Below are positions 46,876-61,316 of a stretch of DNA of 64,000 bases, piece after piece (position 1 is the stretch's first letter; each line of letters opens with the position of its first letter). Where the stretch lies: contig NZ_JAKZFS010000003.1 of NCBI RefSeq assembly GCF_022808915.1, positions 248,001 through 312,000 on the forward strand, written 5' to 3'. This stretch comes from Fundidesulfovibrio terrae (lineage in GTDB: Bacteria; Desulfobacterota; Desulfovibrionia; Desulfovibrionales; Desulfovibrionaceae). The notes under the pieces were generated by a model. That model worked only from the letters and a program-made list of their open reading frames with translations. It was not told where the DNA came from and did no database searches. A program made the position numbers and the translations under genes.

Positions 46876-47289
46876 ATGACGCCCATGGACACATCCATCG
46901 CCGCCGCCCTCTCCCCATGGGAGCCGGGGGGCTTAAGCCTCTTCGTGTTCGCCGTGCTGGTGGGGGGGCTCATCGCCACCCTGCTGGTGCTGACCCGGCT
47001 GGTGAATCCGCCCAGGAGGAGCCCCGAGAAGGACCGGCCCTACGAGTGCGGGATCATCCCCACCGACGAGCCCGCCTTCCGCTATCCGGCCCCGTTCTCG
47101 CTGGTGGCCATGGTCTTTCTGATCTTCGATGTGGAAACCGCCTTCATCTACACCTGGGCCGTTTCCTTCGACGCCATAACCGCCGCGAGCTTCATGGGGA
47201 TCGCCGTATTCATCGGCGTGCTGCTTTTAAGCCTCTGGTATCTCTGGCTCAAGGGAGGGCTCCAATGGGGCATGGCCAGCAGACGATGA
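46876..47289 (+). CDS. nuoA: NADH-quinone oxidoreductase subunit A
   Basis: A 137-residue membrane subunit of complex I with three helices. The conserved loop [12 protein letters not shown] contains the characteristic cysteine, and [16 protein letters not shown] in helix 2 holds the conserved acids. First gene of the nuo operon. The start may be ATG 46876 or ATG 46885. Its last 25 nt overlap the next gene. Confidence 0.95.
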
Positions 47290-49658
47290 CCGCGCCCGGC
47301 TCGGCGCCGCAAAACGCGGTGGACCTCGCCGTGGACTGGTGCCGGGCCAACAGCCTCTGGCCGTTCTTCTTCGGGCTTTCCTGCTGCTTCGTGGAGGAGG
47401 CCACGGCCTTCACCTCCCGCTACGACATCGCCCGCTTCGGCTCCGAGGTGTTCCGGGGATCGCCCAGGCAGTCCGACGTGCTCATCGTGTCGGGCACGAT
47501 ATTCAAGAAGGTGGCTCCCATCGTGCTTCGGCTCTACGAGCAGATGGCCGAGCCCCGCTGGGTGATCTCCATGGGCTCGTGCTCCAACACCGGCGGCATG
47601 TACGACGTCTATTCCGTGGTGCAGGGCGTGGACCAGATTTTGCCCGTGGACATCTACGTGCCCGGCTGCCCTCCCAGGCCCGAGGCCCTCTTGCACGGCC
47701 TGATGGAGTTGCAGAAGAAGGTGAAGCTGGAGCGCCCGTCGCGATCCATCGTGGGGCTCTCCGGCGGCGTCCAGGGCGGGAGGACGAGCGAGCTGTTCGA
47801 AGGCGTCACCAAGGCCATGGACACGCGCGGCCCCGGCTTTACGGGCACGGCCGTGCGGGGAACCTCGGCCACGCCGCCCGGTTTCTCAGGCAGCCGCTCC
47901 CGGCTCATGTGGACGCCGCCCGCCGCGCGCATTGAGGTTTCCGGGCCGGACCGGTCACTGGCCGATGAACTCTCCGAACGCTTCGGCGAAGGCGTCGAGA
48001 GCCTGGAGCCCGTCTCGGACATGCTCACCCTGCGCGTGGCCCCCGAGACGGCCCACGACGTGCTGGCCTACCTGAAGACCCGACCGGCCTCGCCCTACCC
48101 CCGCCTGGAAGACCTGACCGCCATCGACGAGTCCGCCCGGCAGGCCAAGCAGGGCTACCCTGACTACCACCTGGTCTACACCCTGCTCAATTTCCGCAAG
48201 GCGTCGCGGCTTCGCATCAAGGTGCCCCTCGAGGGAGAGGCGCCGGACGCCGCCAGCGTCACCGACGTCTGGCCCACGGCGGACTGGTACGAGCGCGAGG
48301 TGCGCGACATGTTCGGCATCGGCTTCACCGGGCGCGCGCCCCTGAAGCCGCTGATCCTGCCGCCCAACTGGCCCGGGCATCCGCTGCGCAAGTCCCATCC
48401 GCGCCGCTCCACGGAAATGGCCCCCTTCACCCGGGAGGACCTGCCCTCCCTGGAGCCCGTGGACGCCACCGAACTGCTGGGGCGCGCAGCCGGCGAAGAG
48501 GAGATGTTCCTCAACTTCGGGCCGCACCACTATGGCACCCACGGCGTCATGCGCTACGTGCTGGCCCTGCACGGCGAGACCATAAGGGACATGGACATCG
48601 AGATCGGCTACCACCACCGGGGCGTGGAGAAGATCGCCGAGCACCAGTCCTGGCACCAGTTCATCCCATACACCGACCGCGTGGACTACCTGGCGGGGCT
48701 GGCCAACAACCTCTCCTACGTCACGGCGGTGGAGAAGCTGGCCGGGATCAAGGTGCCCGACAGGGCCGAGTACATCCGGGTGATGCTCTGCGAGTTCTTC
48801 CGCCTGTCGAACCACCTGCTCTGGTTCGGCACCTTCGTGCAGGACCTGGGCATGATGAGCGCGGTGTTCTACACCTTCCGCGAGCGCGAGATGGTGCTGG
48901 ACTTCATCGAGACCGTCACCGGCGGGCGGCTGCATCCCTCGTGGCTGCGCATCGGCGGCGTGCCCCAGGACCTGCCCGACGGCTGGCGCGACCAGGTGGA
49001 CCGGTTCGTGAAGATATTCCCCTCGCGCATCAAGGAGTACGAGGCGCTCTTCAGCAAGAATCCCATCTTCACCGCCCGCACCAAGGGCGTGACCCCGGTG
49101 TCGGCCGAGGACGCCGTGCAGTGGGGCATCACCGGCCCCAACCTGCGCGCCTGCGGCCCGGCCTGGGACCTGCGCAAGAAGATCCCCTACGGGGCCTATC
49201 CGGCCTTCGATTTCGAGGTGCCCACCGCCCACACCGGCGACTGCTACGCCCGCTATGTGGTGCGCATGGAAGAGATGCGCCAGAGCCTTCGCATCATCGA
49301 GCAGGCCGCCCGGGACATGCCCCCGGGGCGCATCATGACCGACGACTACCGCTACGTGCTGCCCGACAAGAAGGATGCGCTCAAGGACATCGAGAGCCTG
49401 ATCCACCACTTCGTGAATTCGTCGCGCGGGCCCACCTTGCCCCGGGGCGAGGCTTACCACGCCACCGAATCGCCGCGCGGGGAGCAGGGCTACTACGTGG
49501 TCAGCGACGGGCTCACTTGCCCCTACCGGCTGCACATCCGCTCGCCGGGATACGCCAACGTGCAGGCCCTCAGGCACTACGTGCCGGGACACACCATCCC
49601 GGACCTGGTCGCCACCGTGGCTTCCATCGACTACATTCTGCCGGACATCGACAGGTAA
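47265..49658 (+). CDS. nuoBCD: Fused NADH-quinone oxidoreductase subunits B, C and D
   Basis: One uninterrupted 797-residue frame carries three peripheral-arm subunits. NuoB (about 15-165) binds cluster N2 through C40, C41, C106 and C135, with spacing as in E. coli. After a Gly/Ser/Thr-rich linker (about 165-220) comes NuoC (about 222-380, with [21 protein letters not shown]). NuoD (about 410-797) opens with [21 protein letters not shown] and has the quinone-site histidine region. AAGGGAGG precedes the ATG at 47265. CD fusions are well known; the added B subunit is less usual. Confidence 0.95.
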
Positions 49659-49672
49659 GGAGACGCGCCCGC

Positions 49673-50167
49673 ATGCTGCCCGAGGAACTGGAGCAAACTC
49701 TGCGCGACATGGTGGCCCACACGGACCAGCCCAGGGAGATGGCCGTGGACGTGCTCTACGCGCTGCAGAACCACTACGGCTACCTGTGCGACGAGGCCAT
49801 CGAAGAGGCGGCCAAGCGCCTGGGCATGAGCCCCCTGGAAGTGGACGGGCTGGCCACCTTCTACGACTTTCTCTACCGCGAACCGGTAGGCCGCTACGTC
49901 ATCCACGTGTGCGACGGCGTGGTCTGCTGGATGCACCGGGTGGACGGCGTGTTCCGCCACCTGCAGGACGTTCTCGGCATCGAAGTGGGCCAGACCACGC
50001 CCGACGGCATGTTCTCCATCCTGCCCACGGCCTGCATCGGCGACTGCCAGAACGCGCCCGGCATGCTGGTCAACGGCAAGTACTACGGCAGACTCACCAA
50101 CGAAAAGATCGACGAGATCCTCGCCCGGCTGCGCGAACACGGCGAGGAGATCGTGGTGTGCAGGTAG
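49673..50167 (+). CDS. nuoE: NADH-quinone oxidoreductase subunit E
   Basis: A 164-residue thioredoxin-like [2Fe-2S] protein. Cluster N1a ligands are C80 and C85 (HVCDGVVCW) and C121 and C125 (TACIGDCQ), in the expected Cx4C and Cx3C spacing. It pairs with NuoF. TAAGGAG lies upstream of the ATG, 14 nt after nuoBCD. Confidence 0.95.
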   Translation: MLPEELEQTLRDMVAHTDQPREMAVDVLYALQNHYGYLCDEAIEEAAKRLGMSPLEVDGLATFYDFLYREPVGRYVIHVCDGVVCWMHRVDGVFRHLQDVLGIEVGQTTPDGMFSILPTACIGDCQNAPGMLVNGKYYGRLTNEKIDEILARLREHGEEIVVCR

Positions 50168-50170
50168 GCC

Positions 50171-51565
50171 ATGTCTGAACTCGTACTCTTCAGGAACCGC
50201 GGCAAGCGCCGCCACGTCCACCTGGACGAATACCGCGCCAACGGCGGCTACGAGGGACTGACCAAGGCCGTGACCTCCATGGCCCCGGCAGAGGTCATCA
50301 AGGAAGTGCTGGACTCCGGCCTGCGCGGGCGCGGCGGCGCGGGTTTCCCTGCCGGGCGCAAGTGGGGCGGCGTGTCCCTGGACAGCCCGCACCCGCGCTA
50401 CATCCTGTGCAACGCCGACGAAATGGAGCCCGGCACCTTCAAGGACCGCATCATCATCAACGCCGACCCGCACCTCATCATCGAAGGCATGGCCCTGGCC
50501 GCCTACGCCATCGGCGGGGACAAGGGCGTGATCTTCATCCGCCCCTCCTACGAGCTCGAAGCGGAACTCATGACCATCGAGATCGAGGAGGCGCGCGCGG
50601 CCAATCTTCTGGGCAAGAACATCCTGGGCACGGACTTCAGCTTCGACATCATCGTGCACCGAAGCGGCGGCCGCTACATCTGCGGCGAATCCGGAGCCCA
50701 GCAGCGCGCGGTCATGGGCGTGCGCCCCAATCCCATCGAGACCGGCTACCGTTCCGCCGTGCGCGGCCTGTGGGACAAGCCCACAATCGTCAACAACGTG
50801 GAAACCCTGGCCAGCGTCCCCGGCATCATCCGAAACGGCGCGCAGTGGTTCAAGGACCTCTCCGCCACCCCCGGCGGAGACGGGGCCAAGCTCTACGCCG
50901 TGAGCGGCATGGTGGCCAACCCCGACTGCTTCGAGCTGCCCTCGGGCACCACCCTGCGCGAGATCGTCTTCACCCACGCCGGGGGGATGCTTCCGGGCAA
51001 GAAGTTCAAGGCCGCGCTGCCCGGCGGCACCTCCACCACGTTCATGTCCGAGAAGTACCTGGACCTTCCGCTGGACTTCCAGACCTTGCGCGACAACGGA
51101 TTCCGCCTGGGCACCGGCGCGGTGATCGTCTTCGACCAGGACACGTGCCTGGTGGCGGCCACGCTCAACATGTCGCACTATTTCGCCCGAGAGTCCTGCG
51201 GCTGGTGCACCCCCTGCCGCGACGGCCTGCCGCTGGTGCTGGATCTGCTCACGCGCATCGAGAACGGCACGGGCACCGCGGAGGACGTGGCGGCCCTTCG
51301 GCGCACCGCTCAGCACATGGATTACGCCAACTGCGCCTTCGCCCCCGGGGCGGCCGCGCCGGTACTCGGCCTGCTGGACTATTTCATGGACGAGGTCATG
51401 GCCCACATCGAGGGCAAGGAGTGCCCGTTCGGCTCGCAGCCGGCCCTGCCCTGGCAAGGCGACCGCTACGCCGTCATCACCACCTGGCCCGGAGCGCCCG
51501 AGGGCAGTTGCCCAGGCGCGCGGCCCAGGCCCAAACCGAGGCGGATCGTCTCATGCCCGATCTGA
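50171..51565 (+). CDS. nuoF: Complex I subunit F with a diverged NADH-binding region
   Basis: A 464-residue FMN and [4Fe-4S] protein. The FMN motif GLRGRGGAGFPAGRKW (50-65) and NADEMEPGTFKD (81-92) are intact, and N3 ligands C343, C346, C349 and C388 are present. The usual signature GEETAL...SLEG after RYIC is replaced by GESGAQQRAVMG (172-183). A gap-free comparison with E. coli NuoF gives E to S174, K to T191 and F to R194, positions tied to NADH binding in the Thermus enzyme. Either the donor site is altered or the electron donor is not NADH. Confidence 0.9.
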   Translation: MSELVLFRNRGKRRHVHLDEYRANGGYEGLTKAVTSMAPAEVIKEVLDSGLRGRGGAGFPAGRKWGGVSLDSPHPRYILCNADEMEPGTFKDRIIINADPHLIIEGMALAAYAIGGDKGVIFIRPSYELEAELMTIEIEEARAANLLGKNILGTDFSFDIIVHRSGGRYICGESGAQQRAVMGVRPNPIETGYRSAVRGLWDKPTIVNNVETLASVPGIIRNGAQWFKDLSATPGGDGAKLYAVSGMVANPDCFELPSGTTLREIVFTHAGGMLPGKKFKAALPGGTSTTFMSEKYLDLPLDFQTLRDNGFRLGTGAVIVFDQDTCLVAATLNMSHYFARESCGWCTPCRDGLPLVLDLLTRIENGTGTAEDVAALRRTAQHMDYANCAFAPGAAAPVLGLLDYFMDEVMAHIEGKECPFGSQPALPWQGDRYAVITTWPGAPEGSCPGARPRPKPRRIVSCPI

Positions 51566-54045
51566 TCATCGACGGACTTTCCGTCTCCGTGCCTGAGGGC
51601 ACCACGGTCCTCGAAGCGGCCGAGCAGGTGGGGATCATGATCCCGCGCTTCTGCTTCCATCCGGCGCTCGGGCCCGCGGGCTCCTGCCGCATGTGCGCGG
51701 TGATGTTCACCGACGGCCCCGTGAAGGGCCTGCAGATGAGCTGCATGGTCACGGCCAAGAACAGGATGGTGGTGGACACCGGACACCCCGAGGCCCTGGA
51801 GTTCCGCAGGCACATCGCGGAGCTGCTCATGCTGCACCACCCCCACGACTGCCCGGTGTGCGACGAGGGCGGGCACTGCCTGCTCCAGGACACCACCATC
51901 TCCTGCGGACACGGCATCCGGGAATTCAAGGGCAAAAAGCGCACCTACCGCAACCAGGAGCTGGGGCCGCTGGTCATCCAGGAGATGAACCGCTGCATCC
52001 ACTGCTACCGCTGCGCGCGCTACTACCAGGAGTTCGCGGGCGGCCGCGACTTCGGCCCCGTGCGCATCGCCGGGGACGTGGCCTACGGCCGCTACGCCGA
52101 GGGCCCCCTGGAGAGCCCCTTCGCGGGGAATCTGGTGGAGGTCTGCCCCACGGGGGTGTTCACCGACAAGCCCTCGCGCCACAAAGCCCGCCACTGGGAC
52201 CTGGAGCGAAGCCCCTCGGTGTGCCTGAGCTGCAGCCTGGGCTGCAACACCACCGCCTCGGCCCGTTACCGCTCCATCATCAAGATCGAGGCCCGGCACA
52301 ACCCCGAGGTCAACGGGCATTTCCTGTGCGACCGGGGCCGCCACGGCTACGAATACGCCAACCTGGCCGACAGGCCGCGCTCGGCCCAGGTGGACGGACA
52401 GGACGTCTCCATGCAGGCCGCCATGTCCGAGGCCGCCAAGCGCCTGAAGGCCATCGTGGCCGAGCACGGGCCGGGCTCCGTGGCCTGCCTGGGCTCGGCG
52501 CGCCAATCGCTCGAGAGCCAGGCGGCGCTCAAGATGCTGGCCCAGAAAGCCGGGTGGACCGCCCCCGAGTTCACCTCGGGCAGCCACCGCAAGCTGAACA
52601 TGCTCGCCGCCGTGGCCGGGCTCGGGCGCGACCTGCACGTGTCCATGAACGCCATCCCCACGTCGGATTGCATCCTGGTGGTGGGGGCCGGACCGCTCTC
52701 CGAAGCCCCCATGCTGGCCCTGGCCATCCGCCAGGCCGCCCGCAAGGGCGCGGCCGTGGCCGTGATCGACCCCAGGCCCGTGGAGATGCCGCTCGACTTT
52801 ACGCACTTCCCCGCCCGCAGGCACGATATGGAGGCCGCCCTCGGGGCGATCCTGCGCCGGGCCTTTCCGGAGGCCACCCCCGAGGACGCCGGGTTCCTGG
52901 CGGCGCTTTCGCCGGATATGCCCGAAAACGCCGCCCCTCCCGGCTGGGAGGAGTTCGCGGCGAGACTGGCCGAAAGCGCCTTCCCGGTCATCGTGTGCGG
53001 CTCGGACATCGTCCGGCTCTCCACCCCGGCCCTGGCCGCGGCGGGGGCGAAGCTCCTGGCCAAGCGCCGGGGCCGGGCCGGATTCTTCCCGGTGCTGGCC
53101 GGGGCCAACGCCCACGGCGCGGCGCTCATGAACCCGGACACGGCCACCAGCTTCGACGACGTGCTCGCGGGCATCGACGACGGGCGCATCAAGGCGCTCA
53201 TCTGCATGGAGTCCGACCCCGTGGCCCGCTTCGCCGACCACGCCCGCATCCAGGCGGCCATCCACAAAATCGACCTGCTCCTGTGCGTGGACTTCCTACC
53301 CTCGGCCACGCGCTGGCAGTCGCACGTATTTTTGCCCTGCGAAACGGTGTTCGAGTCCGGCGGCAGCTTCATCAACCAGGAAGGGCGCGTGCAGTACGCA
53401 AGCCCGGCCTTCGCTGGCGGTACGCCCATGGCCCTGACCCTGAAAAACGGACACCCGCCCAGGACCTACGCCAAGGGCGTGCCCGGATCGCAGCCCCTGC
53501 CCGGATGGGATTTGCTGGCCGGGCTGGCCGACGCCCTGGGATGCAGCTTCGATGCGGGATTCCATCCCTGGCGGGCCGTGGCCGACGCCTCGCCCGCCCT
53601 GGCCGGACTCGCTCCCGAGAGGTGGCCCCACGACGGCGCGCTGGTGTTGCCGGACGTTGCCCCCGGAGCGTCCCTTGACGCCAGGCCCTCGCCCATCCCG
53701 CCCGACCTGGCCGCCGACCTCATCATCACCGAGCAGGCCTTCGGAACGGAAGAGCTCTCCAGCTACGGAACCATCCTGAAAAGCCTGGCCCCCACGCCCC
53801 AGGTGGTGCTGCACACCCTGGACGCCAACACCATCGAGCTGCGCGAGGAGGACTTCGTGCTGCTCTCCTGCGGCACCGGGCCGGTCAACTGCTACCTGCG
53901 CATGGTGGACAACATGGCCCGTTCCACCGTGGTTCTGCCACGGCGGCACGACAGCGGCTGGCGCCACGCCGTGGCCAGCGGCTACACCGTGCAGCTCGAG
54001 CTTCTGCGAAAGCACCCCGCCGGCCCCGAGGAGGAACTGCCATGA
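51553..54045 (+). CDS. nuoG: NADH-quinone oxidoreductase subunit G
   Basis: An 830-residue iron-sulfur and molybdopterin-fold subunit. N1b: C34, C45, C48, C64. N5: H96, C100, C103, C109. A [4Fe-4S] set C148, C151, C154 and C198. The optional N7 cluster is also encoded (C224, C227, C231, C259). The C-terminal half (about 270-830) is the large molybdopterin-type domain without catalytic cofactor. The start overlaps nuoF by 13 nt. Confidence 0.94.
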   Translation: MPDLIIDGLSVSVPEGTTVLEAAEQVGIMIPRFCFHPALGPAGSCRMCAVMFTDGPVKGLQMSCMVTAKNRMVVDTGHPEALEFRRHIAELLMLHHPHDCPVCDEGGHCLLQDTTISCGHGIREFKGKKRTYRNQELGPLVIQEMNRCIHCYRCARYYQEFAGGRDFGPVRIAGDVAYGRYAEGPLESPFAGNLVEVCPTGVFTDKPSRHKARHWDLERSPSVCLSCSLGCNTTASARYRSIIKIEARHNPEVNGHFLCDRGRHGYEYANLADRPRSAQVDGQDVSMQAAMSEAAKRLKAIVAEHGPGSVACLGSARQSLESQAALKMLAQKAGWTAPEFTSGSHRKLNMLAAVAGLGRDLHVSMNAIPTSDCILVVGAGPLSEAPMLALAIRQAARKGAAVAVIDPRPVEMPLDFTHFPARRHDMEAALGAILRRAFPEATPEDAGFLAALSPDMPENAAPPGWEEFAARLAESAFPVIVCGSDIVRLSTPALAAAGAKLLAKRRGRAGFFPVLAGANAHGAALMNPDTATSFDDVLAGIDDGRIKALICMESDPVARFADHARIQAAIHKIDLLLCVDFLPSATRWQSHVFLPCETVFESGGSFINQEGRVQYASPAFAGGTPMALTLKNGHPPRTYAKGVPGSQPLPGWDLLAGLADALGCSFDAGFHPWRAVADASPALAGLAPERWPHDGALVLPDVAPGASLDARPSPIPPDLAADLIITEQAFGTEELSSYGTILKSLAPTPQVVLHTLDANTIELREEDFVLLSCGTGPVNCYLRMVDNMARSTVVLPRRHDSGWRHAVASGYTVQLELLRKHPAGPEEELP

Positions 54046-55037
54046 CCCTCTGGCTGACGGGACTGGCCCTGCTGTTGGTGAAGCTGGCCCTGGTGCTGGT
54101 GGTGGTGCTGGCCATCGCCGCCTACCTGGTGCTCCTGGAACGAAAGCTCTTGGGGCGCTTCCAGCAGCGCTTCGGCCCCAACCGCGTGGGTCCCTTCGGG
54201 CTTTTGCAGCCCCTGGCCGACGGGGCCAAGATGCTCCTCAAGGAAGACCTCATCCCGGCCGGGGCGGACCGCTTCCTGTTCATGATCGTGCCCGCCGTGC
54301 TGCCCGCGGCCACGCTCCTGGCCTTCGCCGTGGTGCCCTTCGGCACCGACATCACCGTCATGGGCCAGAAGGTGCCCATGGTCATCTCCGACCTGGACGT
54401 GGGGGTGCTCTTCGTGCTGGCCCTGTCGTCGGTTGGCGTCTACTCCCTGGCGCTCGGCGGCTGGGCCTCCAACAGCAAGTACAGCGTGCTCGGAGCCGTG
54501 CGGGGTGTCGGCCAGATGATCAGCTACGAGCTGCCGCTCGGGCTCACGCTGGTGCCCATCGTCATGATGGCCGGGTCCATGAGCCTCGTGGACATCGTGG
54601 ACGCCCAGGCGGACATGCCCTTCATCGTGTACCAGCCCGTGGCCTTCGTGCTCTTCCTCATAAGCGCCCTGGCCGAGATCAAGCGCACCCCCTTCGACCT
54701 AGCCGAGGCCGAAAACGAGCTCCAGGCCGGGTTCCACATGGAATACAGCGGCATGCGCTTCGCCCTGTTCTTTCTCGGCGAATACATGAACATGATCTTC
54801 CTGGGGGCCCTGGCGGCCGTATTCTTCCTGGGCGGATGGCGCGGGCCGGTGCTGCCGCCGGTGGTGTGGCTGCTGCTCAAGGCCTTCATCATGCCGGTGC
54901 TGCTCATCTGGATTCGCGCCACGCTGCCGAGGCTTCGGCCCGACCAGCTCATGCGCCTGTGCTGGGTGTGGCTTGCGCCGCTGGCGCTTGTGAACATTCT
55001 GGCCACCGGAGCGGTCATGCTCTTTATCAAGGGATGA
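54042..55037 (+). CDS. nuoH: NADH-quinone oxidoreductase subunit H
   Basis: A 331-residue membrane subunit with eight helices at the quinone-site entrance. Conserved LERKLLGRFQQRFGPNRVGPFGLLQPLADGAK and EIKRTPFDLAEAENELQAGFHMEYSGM are present. The ATG overlaps the nuoG stop by 4 nt. It connects NuoBCD to the proton-pumping arm. Confidence 0.96.
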   Translation: MTLWLTGLALLLVKLALVLVVVLAIAAYLVLLERKLLGRFQQRFGPNRVGPFGLLQPLADGAKMLLKEDLIPAGADRFLFMIVPAVLPAATLLAFAVVPFGTDITVMGQKVPMVISDLDVGVLFVLALSSVGVYSLALGGWASNSKYSVLGAVRGVGQMISYELPLGLTLVPIVMMAGSMSLVDIVDAQADMPFIVYQPVAFVLFLISALAEIKRTPFDLAEAENELQAGFHMEYSGMRFALFFLGEYMNMIFLGALAAVFFLGGWRGPVLPPVVWLLLKAFIMPVLLIWIRATLPRLRPDQLMRLCWVWLAPLALVNILATGAVMLFIKG

Positions 55038-55050
55038 TGGGGATAACGGC

Positions 55051-55605
55051 ATGTACCAGAAGAACGGATTTCTCAAAAGCGCCATCGAGGGCACCACGGG
55101 CCTGCTGGAACCCTTCCAGGTGGTGTTCAAGCACCTCTTCCGCAAGCCCATCACCGAGGAGTACCCCGAGTTCAAGCGCGAGCTGCCGGAAAGGACGCGT
55201 GGGCGCATCGTGCTCACCCGCAGCCCCGACAACGAGGAGCGCTGCGTGGCCTGCCAGTTGTGCTCGGCCGCCTGCCCGGTGAGCTGCATCTCCATGCAGT
55301 CCGCCGTGCGTGAGGACGGTCGCCGATACGCCGAGTGGTTCCGCATCAACTTCGGGCGCTGCATCTTCTGCGGCCTTTGCGAGGAGGCCTGCCCCACCCT
55401 GGCCATCCAGCTCACGCCCGACTTCGAGATGAGCGCGGACGATCCCCTGAAGCTCGTCTACGAGAAGGACGACCTGTTGGTGGACCACGGCGGCAAAGAC
55501 CCGGACTACGATTTCTACAGGCACGCGGGCGTGGCCGTTGGGCGCGGGCCAGGCACCCACGAGGACGAGCTGCCCGCCGTCAACATCAAGAGCAACTACC
55601 CATGA
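55051..55605 (+). CDS. nuoI: NADH-quinone oxidoreductase subunit I
   Basis: A 184-residue protein with two ferredoxin-type [4Fe-4S] motifs: C65, C68, C71, C75 and C104, C107, C110, C114 (clusters N6a and N6b). The N-terminal helices dock on NuoH. It relays electrons from NuoG to N2. It ends 110 nt before nuoJ, the only large gap in the operon. Confidence 0.96.
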   Translation: MYQKNGFLKSAIEGTTGLLEPFQVVFKHLFRKPITEEYPEFKRELPERTRGRIVLTRSPDNEERCVACQLCSAACPVSCISMQSAVREDGRRYAEWFRINFGRCIFCGLCEEACPTLAIQLTPDFEMSADDPLKLVYEKDDLLVDHGGKDPDYDFYRHAGVAVGRGPGTHEDELPAVNIKSNYP

Positions 55606-55635
55606 GGGCGGATCGTCTGGTCGGACGGGGAGAAA

Positions 55636-55673
55636 GCCTCCGGCGGCCAAAGGGCTGCGCCCTTTGGAATCCC
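55636..55673 (+). repeat. Palindromic intergenic element, copy E, inside the nuo operon
   Basis: Head GCCTCCGGCGGCC, stem CCAAAGGG with loop CTGCG and exact complement CCCTTTGG, tail AATCCC. It is the minimal intact form of the family. It lies in the nuoI-nuoJ gap on the coding strand and has no poly-U tract, so it is not a typical terminator; an RNA-processing or stability hairpin is possible. Confidence 0.85.
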
Positions 55674-55714
55674 GTATCGCTTCGCGTCGTGGCAGGCGCG
55701 CTTGGGGTGATGAT

Positions 55715-56251
55715 ATGAGCGTAACACAAATACTTTTTTATGTGCTGGCAGGAGTCATCGCCGCGTCCACCGGGCTGGCCGTGTTCCAGCGCCAGCCGGT
55801 GCACGCCGTGGTCTACCTGGTGGTGTCCTTCTTCGCCACGGCGGTGCTCTTCGGGCTCTTCGGCGCGCCGCTTCCCGCCATCCTGCAGATCATGGTGCCC
55901 GCCGGGGCGGTGATGGTGCTGTTTCTCTTCATCATCATGCTGCTTGGCCGCGAGGAGCCCAAGCCCCGCGACCTGGCCACCATGCGCTGGATCGGCCCGG
56001 CCGCCCTGGCGGCCGTAGCGGCCGTGGCCGGGGCGGTGCTGCTGTCCCTACCCGTCCACGAGGCCGTCCCCATGGCCATGGCCAAGGCGTCGGCCAAGGA
56101 GCTCGGGCGCTTCGTGTATCAGAACTACTGGCCCGCCGTGGAGGCCGTGTCCGTGCTCTTCTTCGTGGCCTTGGCCGGGGCCATGTTCCTGGTGCGCGAC
56201 TTCAAGGCCCGGGGCGCCGAGAAGCCCGGCAATGAGGAGGCCCAGCCGTGA
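55715..56251 (+). CDS. nuoJ: NADH-quinone oxidoreductase subunit J
   Basis: A 178-residue membrane subunit with five helices. The helix-3 segment VMVLFLFIIMLLG has the pi-bulge-type pattern of NuoJ, and QRQPVHAVVYLVVSF is the usual helix-2 motif. The last helix is followed by a short charged tail. It begins after the palindromic element and overlaps nuoK. Confidence 0.94.
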   Translation: MSVTQILFYVLAGVIAASTGLAVFQRQPVHAVVYLVVSFFATAVLFGLFGAPLPAILQIMVPAGAVMVLFLFIIMLLGREEPKPRDLATMRWIGPAALAAVAAVAGAVLLSLPVHEAVPMAMAKASAKELGRFVYQNYWPAVEAVSVLFFVALAGAMFLVRDFKARGAEKPGNEEAQP

Positions 56252-56553
56252 CCGCTCCCCTCGAACACGTCCTGGCCCTGGCAGTGCTCCTTTTCGCCAT
56301 GGGAGCCTTCTGCGCCCTGGCCAGGCGCAACCTGATCATGATCCTGCTCGGCGTCGAGATCATGCTGAACGCCTGCTCCATCGCCCTGGTGGGGGCCTCG
56401 CTCAAGTGGCAGGCCATGGAGGGACAGGCCTTCACCCTCTTTCTCATGGCCCTTACGGCGGCGGAGGCCTCGGTCGGGCTGGCGCTCTTCGTCCACGCCC
56501 GCAAACGCGCCGGGACGCTTGATTCCGGCGGCTACTCCAGCATGAAGGGATAG
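56248..56553 (+). CDS. nuoK: NADH-quinone oxidoreductase subunit K
   Basis: A 101-residue three-helix subunit. The two conserved membrane glutamates are in LLGVEIMLNA (helix 2) and LTAAEASVGLAL (helix 3). GTG start at 56248 overlaps the nuoJ stop (GTGA) and has GAGGAGG upstream. Confidence 0.96.
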   Translation: MTAPLEHVLALAVLLFAMGAFCALARRNLIMILLGVEIMLNACSIALVGASLKWQAMEGQAFTLFLMALTAAEASVGLALFVHARKRAGTLDSGGYSSMKG

Positions 56554-56556
56554 CCC

Positions 56557-58440
<1,884 letters not shown>

Positions 58441-58444
58441 ACGC

Positions 58445-59890
58445 ATGAACGCCTGCCCCCTGCTCTCTGCCGTCACCTTCCTGCCCCTGGCGTTCGCCCT
58501 GGGAGCCCTGCTCCTTGGCAAGCGCCCGGACGCCTGCCGCAAGTTCAGCCTTGCGGCCGCCCTGTTCCACCTGGGGTTCACGGCCTGGGCCATGGCCCTG
58601 CCCCTGCCGCTCATCGAAGACGCGGCCTGGATACCGGCGCTCGGCGCGCGCTACGCCCTGGAAATGGACGGCGTGAGCGGCGTCCTCTCGCTCATGACCT
58701 CGTTCCTCACCGTGATTGCGGTGCTGGTGTCCTGGAAGGAGATCGGCGAGAAGGTCGGGGCCTACCACGCCCTGATCTTCGGCGTGGCCACCACGGCTCT
58801 GGGCGTGTTCCTGGCCCGGGACCTGCTTCTTTTCCTGGTGTTCTGGGAAGCCCAGCTGGTGCCCATGTTCTTCATCATCGCCGTGTGGGGCCACGAGGAG
58901 AAGCGCCGCGCCGCCTTCAAGTTCTTCCTGTTCTCCATCGCGGGCGGGCTGTTCATGCTGCTGGCAGCCGTGTGGCTGTATCTCGCCCACGGCGCCATGA
59001 CCGGCACGTACACTTTCTCGCTGGCCGCGCTCATGGCCTCGCCAGTGGCTCCGGCAGCGCAGGGCTGGCTTCTGGCCGCGTTCCTTCTGGCCTTCGCCAT
59101 CAAGACCCCCATCGTGCCCCTGCACACATGGCTGCCCGACGCCCACACCCAGGCCCCCACGGCGGGCAGCCTGCTGCTGGCCGGGGTGCTCCTCAAGACC
59201 GGCTCCTACGCCCTGGCCAGATGGGCCATCCCGCTCTTCCCGCAGGCATCCGCGCAGTACTGGTGGGTGCTGGCGGCCCTGGGCGCTGGCGGGCTGGTCT
59301 ACGCCTCCTGGGTGGCCTTCGCCCAGACCGACGCCAAGCGGCTGGTGGCCTACTCTTCGGTTGGCCACATGGGGCTCGTCGTGCTGGGGTTGGCCGTGTG
59401 GAAGACCGCCACGCTGGAGGGCGCGGTGCTGCTCATGGTGAACCACGCCCTGACCACGGGCGCGCTGTTCGTGATGGTCGGCATGCTCGGCGAACGCGCC
59501 CACACCCGCGAGATGGCCCGGTTCGGCGGGCTGTGGAAGAGCATGCCCACATTCAGCGGATTCTTCCTCTTGTTCGCCATGGCTTCTGCGGGTCTTCCGG
59601 GCCTGGGCAACTTCGTGAGCGAAATGCTCATCCTGCTGGGTTCCTACGGGACCGCCCCGCTGGGCGCTGCCCTGGCCTTCGGCGGGCTGGTGCTCACCCT
59701 GGCCTACGTGCTCAGGCTCGTGCAGGCCATGCTGTTCGGCGAAAGCGCCACGGATCACGCCTACCGGGACCTGACTCCCCGCGAGGCGTTGATCCTGGCT
59801 CCCCTGGCCGCCTGCGTGGTGGTCCTGGGCGTGGCCCCGTGGATGATCCTGGACCTGATACGAGGCCCCCTCAAGGCGCTGCTGGCGTAA
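58445..59890 (+). CDS. nuoM: NADH-quinone oxidoreductase subunit M
   Basis: A 481-residue antiporter-like subunit with about 14 helices. FWEAQLVPMFFIIAVWG has the conserved channel glutamate and AFAIKTPIVPLHTWLPDAHTQAPTAGSLLLAGVLLKTG carries the conserved lysines. It pumps protons between NuoL and NuoN. Starts 4 nt after nuoL. Confidence 0.95.
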   Translation: MNACPLLSAVTFLPLAFALGALLLGKRPDACRKFSLAAALFHLGFTAWAMALPLPLIEDAAWIPALGARYALEMDGVSGVLSLMTSFLTVIAVLVSWKEIGEKVGAYHALIFGVATTALGVFLARDLLLFLVFWEAQLVPMFFIIAVWGHEEKRRAAFKFFLFSIAGGLFMLLAAVWLYLAHGAMTGTYTFSLAALMASPVAPAAQGWLLAAFLLAFAIKTPIVPLHTWLPDAHTQAPTAGSLLLAGVLLKTGSYALARWAIPLFPQASAQYWWVLAALGAGGLVYASWVAFAQTDAKRLVAYSSVGHMGLVVLGLAVWKTATLEGAVLLMVNHALTTGALFVMVGMLGERAHTREMARFGGLWKSMPTFSGFFLLFAMASAGLPGLGNFVSEMLILLGSYGTAPLGAALAFGGLVLTLAYVLRLVQAMLFGESATDHAYRDLTPREALILAPLAACVVVLGVAPWMILDLIRGPLKALLA

Positions 59891-59900
59891 GGACACGACC

Positions 59901-61316
59901 ATGAACGCACTGCTCACCAGCTATCTTCCCATGCTGATCCTGGGGCTCGGAGCCCTGGCGGTCTTCGTGTGCGGGGCGCTTTCGCCCACGCGGGGGACGC
60001 TGTTCCGATCAATCGCCCTGTTGGCCTCGGGCGCGGCCTGCCTCTCGGCCCTGGCCATGGTTCCGGACGCCACCCAGACCTTGGTGGACGCCGGGCCTTA
60101 CGCCCGCTTCTTCACCGCCCTTCTGTGCGGCGTGGCCTTCGTATGCCTGTTGTTCGCGGGGGAATACGCGCGCCTGCGAGGCTTCGAGCGAGACGAGTTC
60201 CACGCCCTGATCCTCCTGGCCACGCTGGGCATGGTGATGCTGGCCGTATCCACCGACTGGATCATGTTCGCCATCGCCCTGGAGATATTGTCGCTCTCGC
60301 TCTACGTGCTCATCGCCTCCCGCCGGGAGAAGTCCCTGCCCCTGGAGGCGGCCATCAAGTATTTCGTGCTGGGCGCGGTGGCCAGCTCCATGGTCTTCTT
60401 CGGCATCGCCCTTGTCTACGCGGCCTCGGGCTCCATGGACCTGGCCGCGAGCCTGGTCAAATCAGGCACCCAGGGCACGGGCCTTCTGGGCATGGCCTTC
60501 ATCCTGATCGGGCTTGGCTTCAAGCTCTCGCTGGCCCCCATGCACCTGTGGACCCCCGACGTCTACCAGGGCGCGCCCGCCCCAGTGGCGGCCTTCCTCT
60601 CCGGCGGGGCCAAGGTGGCGGCCTTCGCGGCGCTCTTACGCCTGGCCATGACCCAATCTCCCGTGTGGACGGCCGTCGAGCCAGCCCTGTGGGCGCTCAC
60701 GGCCCTGTCGCTGGTCGGCGGGACGCTGGGCGCGCTGACCCAGCCCAGCGCCAAGCGCATGCTGGCCTACTCTTCCGTCACCCACGTGGGATTCATGGTG
60801 CTGGCGCTGCTGGCCGTGGGAACGGCCGGGCCGGGACCGGCCATGTTCGCGGCCGCGGCCCTGGCGGTGATGGACGTGGCCGTGTTCGGCTGCCTGGGGC
60901 TTCTTTCGCCCATCGACCAGGACGCCGACCTGGTGGACGGCCTGCGCGGCCTGGGGCGCTCGCAGCCCGGCGTTGCCGGGGTGCTGGCCCTGTCGCTCCT
61001 GACCCTTGGCGGCCTGCCCCCCACCATCGGCTTCATGAGCAAGCTGGTGGTGTTCAAGGCGGCGCTCGCCGCCGGCTACCTGTGGCTTTCGGTCATCGCC
61101 GTCGCCATGGCAATCGTTGGCGTGTTCTACATCTTGCGGGTGCTGGCCGCGCTCTACGCCGAACCGGACGAGAACGCACCGCTCCCGGTGCTGGCGGCCC
61201 CCGGCGCGTCCGGCTGGCTGGCCGTGGCCATCTCGGCCCTCCTCATGATCGGCCTGGGCGTCGCGCCCATGCCCGTGCTGGACGCGGCCGCCCTGGCCTT
61301 CAAGACCATCCCCTGA
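59901..61316 (+). CDS. nuoN: NADH-quinone oxidoreductase subunit N
   Basis: A 471-residue antiporter-like subunit with 14 helices. FAIALEILSLSLYVL, GFKLSLAPMHLWTPDVYQGAPAPVAAFLS and LGGLPPTIGFMSKLVVF are the usual NuoN signatures. Last gene of the operon, followed by a strong terminator. Confidence 0.95.
   Translation: MNALLTSYLPMLILGLGALAVFVCGALSPTRGTLFRSIALLASGAACLSALAMVPDATQTLVDAGPYARFFTALLCGVAFVCLLFAGEYARLRGFERDEFHALILLATLGMVMLAVSTDWIMFAIALEILSLSLYVLIASRREKSLPLEAAIKYFVLGAVASSMVFFGIALVYAASGSMDLAASLVKSGTQGTGLLGMAFILIGLGFKLSLAPMHLWTPDVYQGAPAPVAAFLSGGAKVAAFAALLRLAMTQSPVWTAVEPALWALTALSLVGGTLGALTQPSAKRMLAYSSVTHVGFMVLALLAVGTAGPGPAMFAAAALAVMDVAVFGCLGLLSPIDQDADLVDGLRGLGRSQPGVAGVLALSLLTLGGLPPTIGFMSKLVVFKAALAAGYLWLSVIAVAMAIVGVFYILRVLAALYAEPDENAPLPVLAAPGASGWLAVAISALLMIGLGVAPMPVLDAAALAFKTIP

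Follow-up and report, generated by a model that had tools for sequence, protein, structure and literature searches.

A remodelled nucleotide pocket in the NuoF subunit of a Desulfobacterota complex I suggests NADPH as its partner

The 64-kb stretch of Fundidesulfovibrio terrae DNA analysed here (the window) carries a complete complex I operon whose NuoF subunit has lost the residues that select NADH and kept those of the FMN domain and of the nicotinamide end of the site. The changed block is conserved within the genus, and the protein is identical at three of four variable pocket sites to a NADP+-specific homologue. The key Glu is missing throughout one Desulfobacterota clade and was lost repeatedly in the phylogeny. 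On this basis, the complex is probably a natural NADPH:menaquinone enzyme, or one working in reverse on NADP+. Complex I is generally treated as an NADH enzyme. An NADPH-using form is known to us only from engineering: the E. coli complex was reportedly engineered to use NADPH (Morina, 2011), and searches of an open-licence library listed no title or abstract describing a complex I that uses NADPH naturally.

The nuo operon and the changed block of NuoF

The operon occupies positions 46876 to 61316 on the + strand, from nuoA to nuoN, with nuoF flanked by nuoE and nuoG. The genes nuoH to nuoN were called as open reading frames read by eye, and their order is conserved in the relatives L112 to L116. 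The features are as follows.

46876 to 47289, + strand: nuoA; open reading frame, Pfam Oxidored_q4
47286 to 49658, + strand: fused nuoBCD, 790 aa; Pfam Oxidored_q6, Complex1_30kDa and Complex1_49kDa
49673 to 50167, + strand: nuoE; open reading frame, Pfam 2Fe-2S_thioredx
50171 to 51565, + strand: nuoF, 464 aa, with altered nucleotide pocket; open reading frame, Pfam, AlphaFold model and structural match
50360 to 50371, + strand: Lys64 (kept, equivalent to Thermus Lys75 and FdsB Lys157) to Gly67 (changed) of NuoF; alignment
50690 to 50761, + strand: changed pocket block, NuoF residues 174-197 (SGAQQRAVMGVRPNPIETGYRSAV); alignments, equivalence to FdsB Glu259, Lys276 and Leu279
50690 to 50692, + strand: discriminator codon of Ser174; alignments
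50741 to 50743, + strand: discriminator codon of Thr191; alignments
50750 to 50752, + strand: discriminator codon of Arg194; alignments
51553 to 54045, + strand: nuoG; open reading frame, Pfam cluster and molybdopterin domains
54042 to 55037, + strand: nuoH; by eye, order as in relatives
55051 to 55605, + strand: nuoI; likewise
55715 to 56251, + strand: nuoJ; likewise
56248 to 56553, + strand: nuoK; likewise
56557 to 58440, + strand: nuoL; likewise
58445 to 59890, + strand: nuoM; likewise
59901 to 61316, + strand: nuoN; likewise

The nuoF reading frame has 464 codons without an internal stop, and residues 7-414 of its product align with E. coli NuoF. An earlier note on this DNA had described a replaced run in the protein, with Thr191 and Arg194 standing for a Lys and a Phe. 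Our alignment to E. coli NuoF confirmed this with zero gaps: GRYICGE is followed by SGAQQRAVMG in the window against ETALINSLEG in E. coli, and then by VRPNPIETGYRSAV. Ser174, Thr191 and Arg194 align to E. coli Glu183, Lys200 and Phe203 (numbering verified against an E. coli locus), which we take to be Thermus Glu185, Lys202 and Phe205. The Glu/Lys/Phe signature of NADH-specific NuoF is absent. The second and third positions lie at +17 and +20 from the Glu site, the same spacing as Glu259, Lys276 and Leu279 in FdsB of R. capsulatus. A fourth pocket position has also changed, with Gly67 at what is presumably the place of Thermus Phe78. Identity to E. coli NuoF falls to 6/24 over residues 174-197, compared with 81/154 over residues 20-173 and 98/214 over residues 198-412.

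The rest of the input module appeared ordinary. Pfam Complex1_51K, SLBB and NADH_4Fe-4S all scored above cut-off in NuoF, and the search of NuoE, NuoF and NuoG returned the usual domains with none extra. The N3 cysteines C343, C346, C349 and C388 were invariant in all 17 aligned rows, C80, C85, C121 and C125 were present in NuoE, and NuoG retained its usual cluster domains, in agreement with the claim of the earlier note that these parts are intact. The AlphaFold model adopted the overall NuoF fold, and its best structural match was 8e9g_F (Z 48.9, rmsd 1.8 over 422 residues); the modelled loop 191-193 had pLDDT below 50. NuoF scored below three NCBIfam cut-offs (TIGR01959, 461.4 against 558.65 bits; NF008436, 433.1 against 749; NF010120, 334.9 against 389), and automatic annotation may therefore overlook the protein or give it a wrong name. 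At the C-terminus, residues 421-464 (51431 to 51562) form a Pro/Arg-rich tail that ends in SCPI, carries cysteines 447 and 462 and is conserved in the genus; the tails of L006, L007 and L032 hold cysteines as well.

Two further observations concern the surroundings. Divergent from the operon and upstream of it, the - strand between 44110 and 46402 encodes a Pyr_redox_2 flavoprotein, a DUF1641 protein and a response regulator; by eye, the flavoprotein resembles a sulfide:quinone oxidoreductase. The NuoD part of the fused gene (47286 to 49658) reads GPHHYGTHG near the quinone site, instead of what we take to be the usual motif, GPQHPxTHG.

The changed block was not an artefact of one sequence. 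It occurs in four congeners (79-91% identical) with a few conservative changes. Nonsynonymous divergence ranged from 0.013 to 0.066 over residues 165-200 and from 0.058 to 0.187 elsewhere in the gene, and was lower in the former in all five pairs; synonymous divergence was similar in the two parts in the same pairs. The pocket block is more strongly constrained than the remainder of nuoF. In the genus, nuoF is present in six of seven genomes, counting the window's own, and five of these six copies share the block; the sixth (G004, 60% identical) has a related form, CGEASAQ...GGPR. One congener genome rated 100% complete gave no nuoF match at 1e-50. The earlier note had named a sequencing error as a possible cause of the changes. 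Close relatives did not have the canonical residues, nothing interrupts the frame, and the congeners share the block, which is under constraint; this rules out sequencing error, frameshift and pseudogene.

Distribution of the altered pocket

Among the best 80 of 590 relatives in named genomes, the Glu was absent from 11 (L032 to L042) and present in 69. The 11 came from Desulfobulbaceae, Syntrophales, Desulfobacterales and other deltaproteobacterial MAGs, and in every one of them nuoE and nuoG flank nuoF, which rules out a role outside complex I for these relatives. An even draw of the phylum comprised 395 genomes, 323 of them with a match; of the 49 highest-ranking matches other than that of the window itself, 26 had no Glu. 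Taken with the named-genome scan, this rules out an oddity of one genus.

A tree of 87 rows (85 different) was built by a quick method without the pocket columns. Copies of the window gene, L121 and L031, were left out; outside the clade described next, 15 loci of the earlier set were added, and the others (most gammaproteobacterial and several HydB-like loci) were not used. One Desulfobacterota clade of 40 rows (38 distinct; SH-aLRT 99) lacked the Glu in all 40, with Ala in 16, Gly in 9, Val in 8, Ser in 5 and Asn in 2. The sister clade, 13 Desulfobacterota rows with support 93, had Glu, Lys and Phe in all 13. The Glu state changed at least three times on this tree: in the 40-row clade, in a group of L152, L153, L157 and L159, and in the HydB-like L008 and L010. 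Since the fork that joins the L152 group to other rows had support of 81-86, three losses are the minimum on the best tree.

At position 194, the 41 rows with Glu had Phe in 36, Tyr in 4 and His in 1, while the 46 rows without it had Tyr in 19, Arg in 14, His in 10, Leu in 2 and Phe in 1; within the 40-row clade the counts were Tyr 19, Arg 10, His 9, Phe 1 and Leu 1. At position 67, Phe or Leu occurred in 38 of the 41 rows with Glu, and Thr, Gly or Ser in 36 of the 46 without. A sign test of co-change had three independent pairs, too few to reach significance. The equivalents of Thermus Lys75, Glu95, Asp103 and Glu184 were kept in all 46 rows without Glu, and those of Glu97 and Tyr180 in 44, two HydB-like rows having Asp and Phe.

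In the 11 named loci and in 22 short loci of the clade from the phylum draw, the altered-pocket genes have complex I genes as neighbours. Of these 22, all but L138, which lies at a contig end, had a nuoE match in the fetched stretch (21 loci), and all but L129 had a nuoG match (21 loci). NuoBCD was fused in 14 of 14 testable altered-pocket loci, against none of the five canonical loci tested; the fusion was scored where both ends lay inside the locus, so the partial L035 and L041 were excluded.

Two other sets of relatives were noted. L152, L153, L157 and L159 form a second, separate Desulfobacterota set of NuoF without the Glu. Their sequences are of the type GEGTAL...HKTPRQT, and position 194 is occupied by Arg, His or Leu. 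The HydB-like L008, L010, L011 and L012, from relatives of the same order, read CGESTAL...KYIRS, with Ser and Arg at the discriminator sites, and are possibly NADP+-type bifurcating enzymes.

Electron donor of the altered complex

FdsB of R. capsulatus is a homologue of NuoF in which Glu259 forms a hydrogen bond with the 2'-hydroxyl of NADH (PMC10671435). Each of the single exchanges E259G, E259Q, E259K, E259R, K276A and L279R gave NADP+ activity, of which the wild type had none (PMC10671435). One double variant failed to express, and those that could be made did not outperform the single ones; the authors state that other residues must contribute (PMC10671435). Variants of Lys157 were inactive, marking this residue as essential (PMC10671435). 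The same paper states that E. coli complex I with the equivalent Glu exchanged has a higher affinity for NADPH (PMC10671435). On the opposite side of the site, Glu95, Glu97, Asp103 and Glu184 have a nicotinamide-side role according to a study of Aquifex NuoEF (PMC6560083). As these residues are kept, hydride transfer to or from a nicotinamide should still be possible at the site. The reading of the earlier note, which starts from lost NADH-pocket signature residues, held in part: the NADH-selecting residues have been replaced, whereas the FMN and nicotinamide-end residues and the essential Lys remain.

The nearest match of the pocket was found in a hydrogenase. In the structure 8a6t_B, which is HydB of T. 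kivui, the residues at positions 67, 174, 191 and 194 are Gly, Ser, Arg and Arg, compared with Gly, Ser, Thr and Arg in the window. Purified T. kivui HydABC is reported to reduce NADP+ and not NAD+ (PMC8578170). It is this match, together with the FdsB exchanges at the same sites, that leads us to choose NADPH, or NADP+ in reverse.

As the best explanation, we infer that this is a complex I of the proton-pumping type with an input subunit adapted to accept hydride from NADPH in the place of NADH or, running in reverse, to donate it to NADP+. Neither the binding of FMN nor the nicotinamide end of the site would have changed. At the adenosine end, Ser would replace the Glu that bonds the 2'-hydroxyl of NADH and that would repel the 2'-phosphate of NADPH; Thr would replace the Lys; and the Arg in place of the adjacent Phe could pair with the 2'-phosphate. 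Electrons would then pass through the usual Fe-S chain, presumably to menaquinone.

The direction of flow is a separate question, compatible with the NADPH reading. The complex may run mainly backwards, with quinol and the proton-motive force driving NADP+ reduction. In Seep-SRB2, a Desulfobacterota group, complex I has been proposed to work in reverse and form NADH (PMC10553843), and NADPH is a biosynthetic reductant. The sequence holds nothing that fixes direction, and we consider mainly reverse operation possible, though on the doubtful side.

A broadened enzyme, using NADH and NADPH both at useful rates without strong preference, is unlikely. The FdsB variants that gained NADP+ activity did retain some NAD+ activity (PMC10671435), and the Tyr or His found at position 194 in 28 of the 40 clade rows need not enforce a 2'-phosphate. 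However, the nearest pocket match is the HydABC that is strict for NADP+ (PMC8578170), and in the window's lineage all the discriminators have been replaced, not one. With Arg in 10 of the 40 rows, the argument from Arg applies to the window's lineage and not to the whole clade, and the NADPH case appears strongest for that lineage.

It is less likely still that the complex remains an NADH enzyme with its adenosine end rebuilt differently. Besides the kept nicotinamide end, this reading draws on 9mqx_B, from a bifurcating tungsten aldehyde oxidoreductase solved 'with NADH', whose residues at 67, 174, 191 and 194 are Ser, Ser, Lys and His. The absence of the Glu from an NADH-bound protein means that Glu loss alone does not prove NADPH use. 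Nevertheless, 9mqx_B retains Lys at position 191 and lacks an Arg at position 194, and neutralising the Glu in FdsB lowered both activity and affinity with NAD+ (PMC10671435).

The donor that the earlier note suggested, ferredoxin or another flavoprotein in place of any nicotinamide, is the weakest reading and very improbable. The loss of NADH-selecting residues and the conserved cysteines of the genus tail speak for it. Against it, the changed sites are the NADH/NADPH discriminators, which NADPH fits better; of the 46 rows without Glu, 44-46 retain the residues of the FMN domain and the nicotinamide end; most of the clade rows listed have either no tail or a dissimilar one; and Pfam finds nothing beyond the usual domains in NuoE, NuoF and NuoG.

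The genome offers a setting for an NADPH-using complex. It has dsrA, in line with the sulfate reducer named in the earlier note. The note's view of a complex I that is complete apart from a re-tooled input module is supported as well. A gene pair scored above cut-off for NCBIfam NF004862 and TIGR01316, presumably the make-up of NfnAB; such an NfnAB-like pair could connect NADH and NADPH. The genome encodes a single Complex1_51K protein, and neither NQR2/RnfD/RnfE nor PntB gave a match in it, absences that are not proof in a genome rated 96.84% complete. It is plausible, though short of probable, that the whole Desulfobacterota lineage with fused NuoBCD and lost Glu is a natural NADPH:menaquinone oxidoreductase fed by Nfn from NADH and ferredoxin, or forms NADPH in reverse.

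Physiological potentials are given as about -380 mV for NADPH and about -280 mV for NADH, with -74 mV for menaquinone (PMC9304861). With menaquinone as the presumed acceptor, NADPH would give a redox span for pumping about one and a half times that of NADH. If the NADPH reading is correct, a donor of lower potential heads the chain and leaves more driving force to pump protons where the quinone is itself of low potential, and the annotations and flux models of these bacteria carry the wrong donor. Should NADPH use prove common among the complexes I of Desulfobacterota, new accounts would be needed of how their energy is balanced, what Nfn does and where the reductant for carbon fixation comes from. 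There would also be a natural counterpart of the engineered specificity switch to study. The NADPH claim is testable by a few exchanges in the existing E. coli or Aquifex NuoEF systems.

Comparison with known systems

With canonical NuoF/Nqo1 (E. coli, Thermus thermophilus and Aquifex aeolicus), the window protein shares its fold, domains, place in the operon, FMN and N3 parts and nicotinamide-end residues. It differs at the adenosine end, where Glu, Lys and Phe have become Ser, Thr and Arg and the Phe or Leu at position 67 has become Gly. Glu and Phe are retained in the 7q4v, 7t2r and 9bov chains, as in E. coli NuoF.

T. kivui HydB (8a6t) is like the window protein in the equivalents of Gly67, Ser174 and Arg194, and the window carries the HydB-type signature of a non-acidic residue at 174 with Arg194. 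Unlike the window protein, HydB is a 630-aa subunit of a soluble hydrogenase, has Arg at 191 and is 42% identical in the fold alignment. The extra N- and C-terminal cluster domains of HydB/BfuB (chains of about 580-630 aa) are absent from the window NuoF, and only the NuoF core matches the HydB chains. The 9mqx_B chain shares the change of Glu to Ser, but keeps the Lys and has His at 194.

The engineered FdsB variants (E259G/Q/K/R, K276A and L279R) and the Glu variants of E. coli complex I were changed at the same positions and in the same sense as the window protein, and they gained NADP(H) activity. They are single or double laboratory changes with residual or poor kinetics, whereas the changes in the window are natural, combined and lineage-wide.
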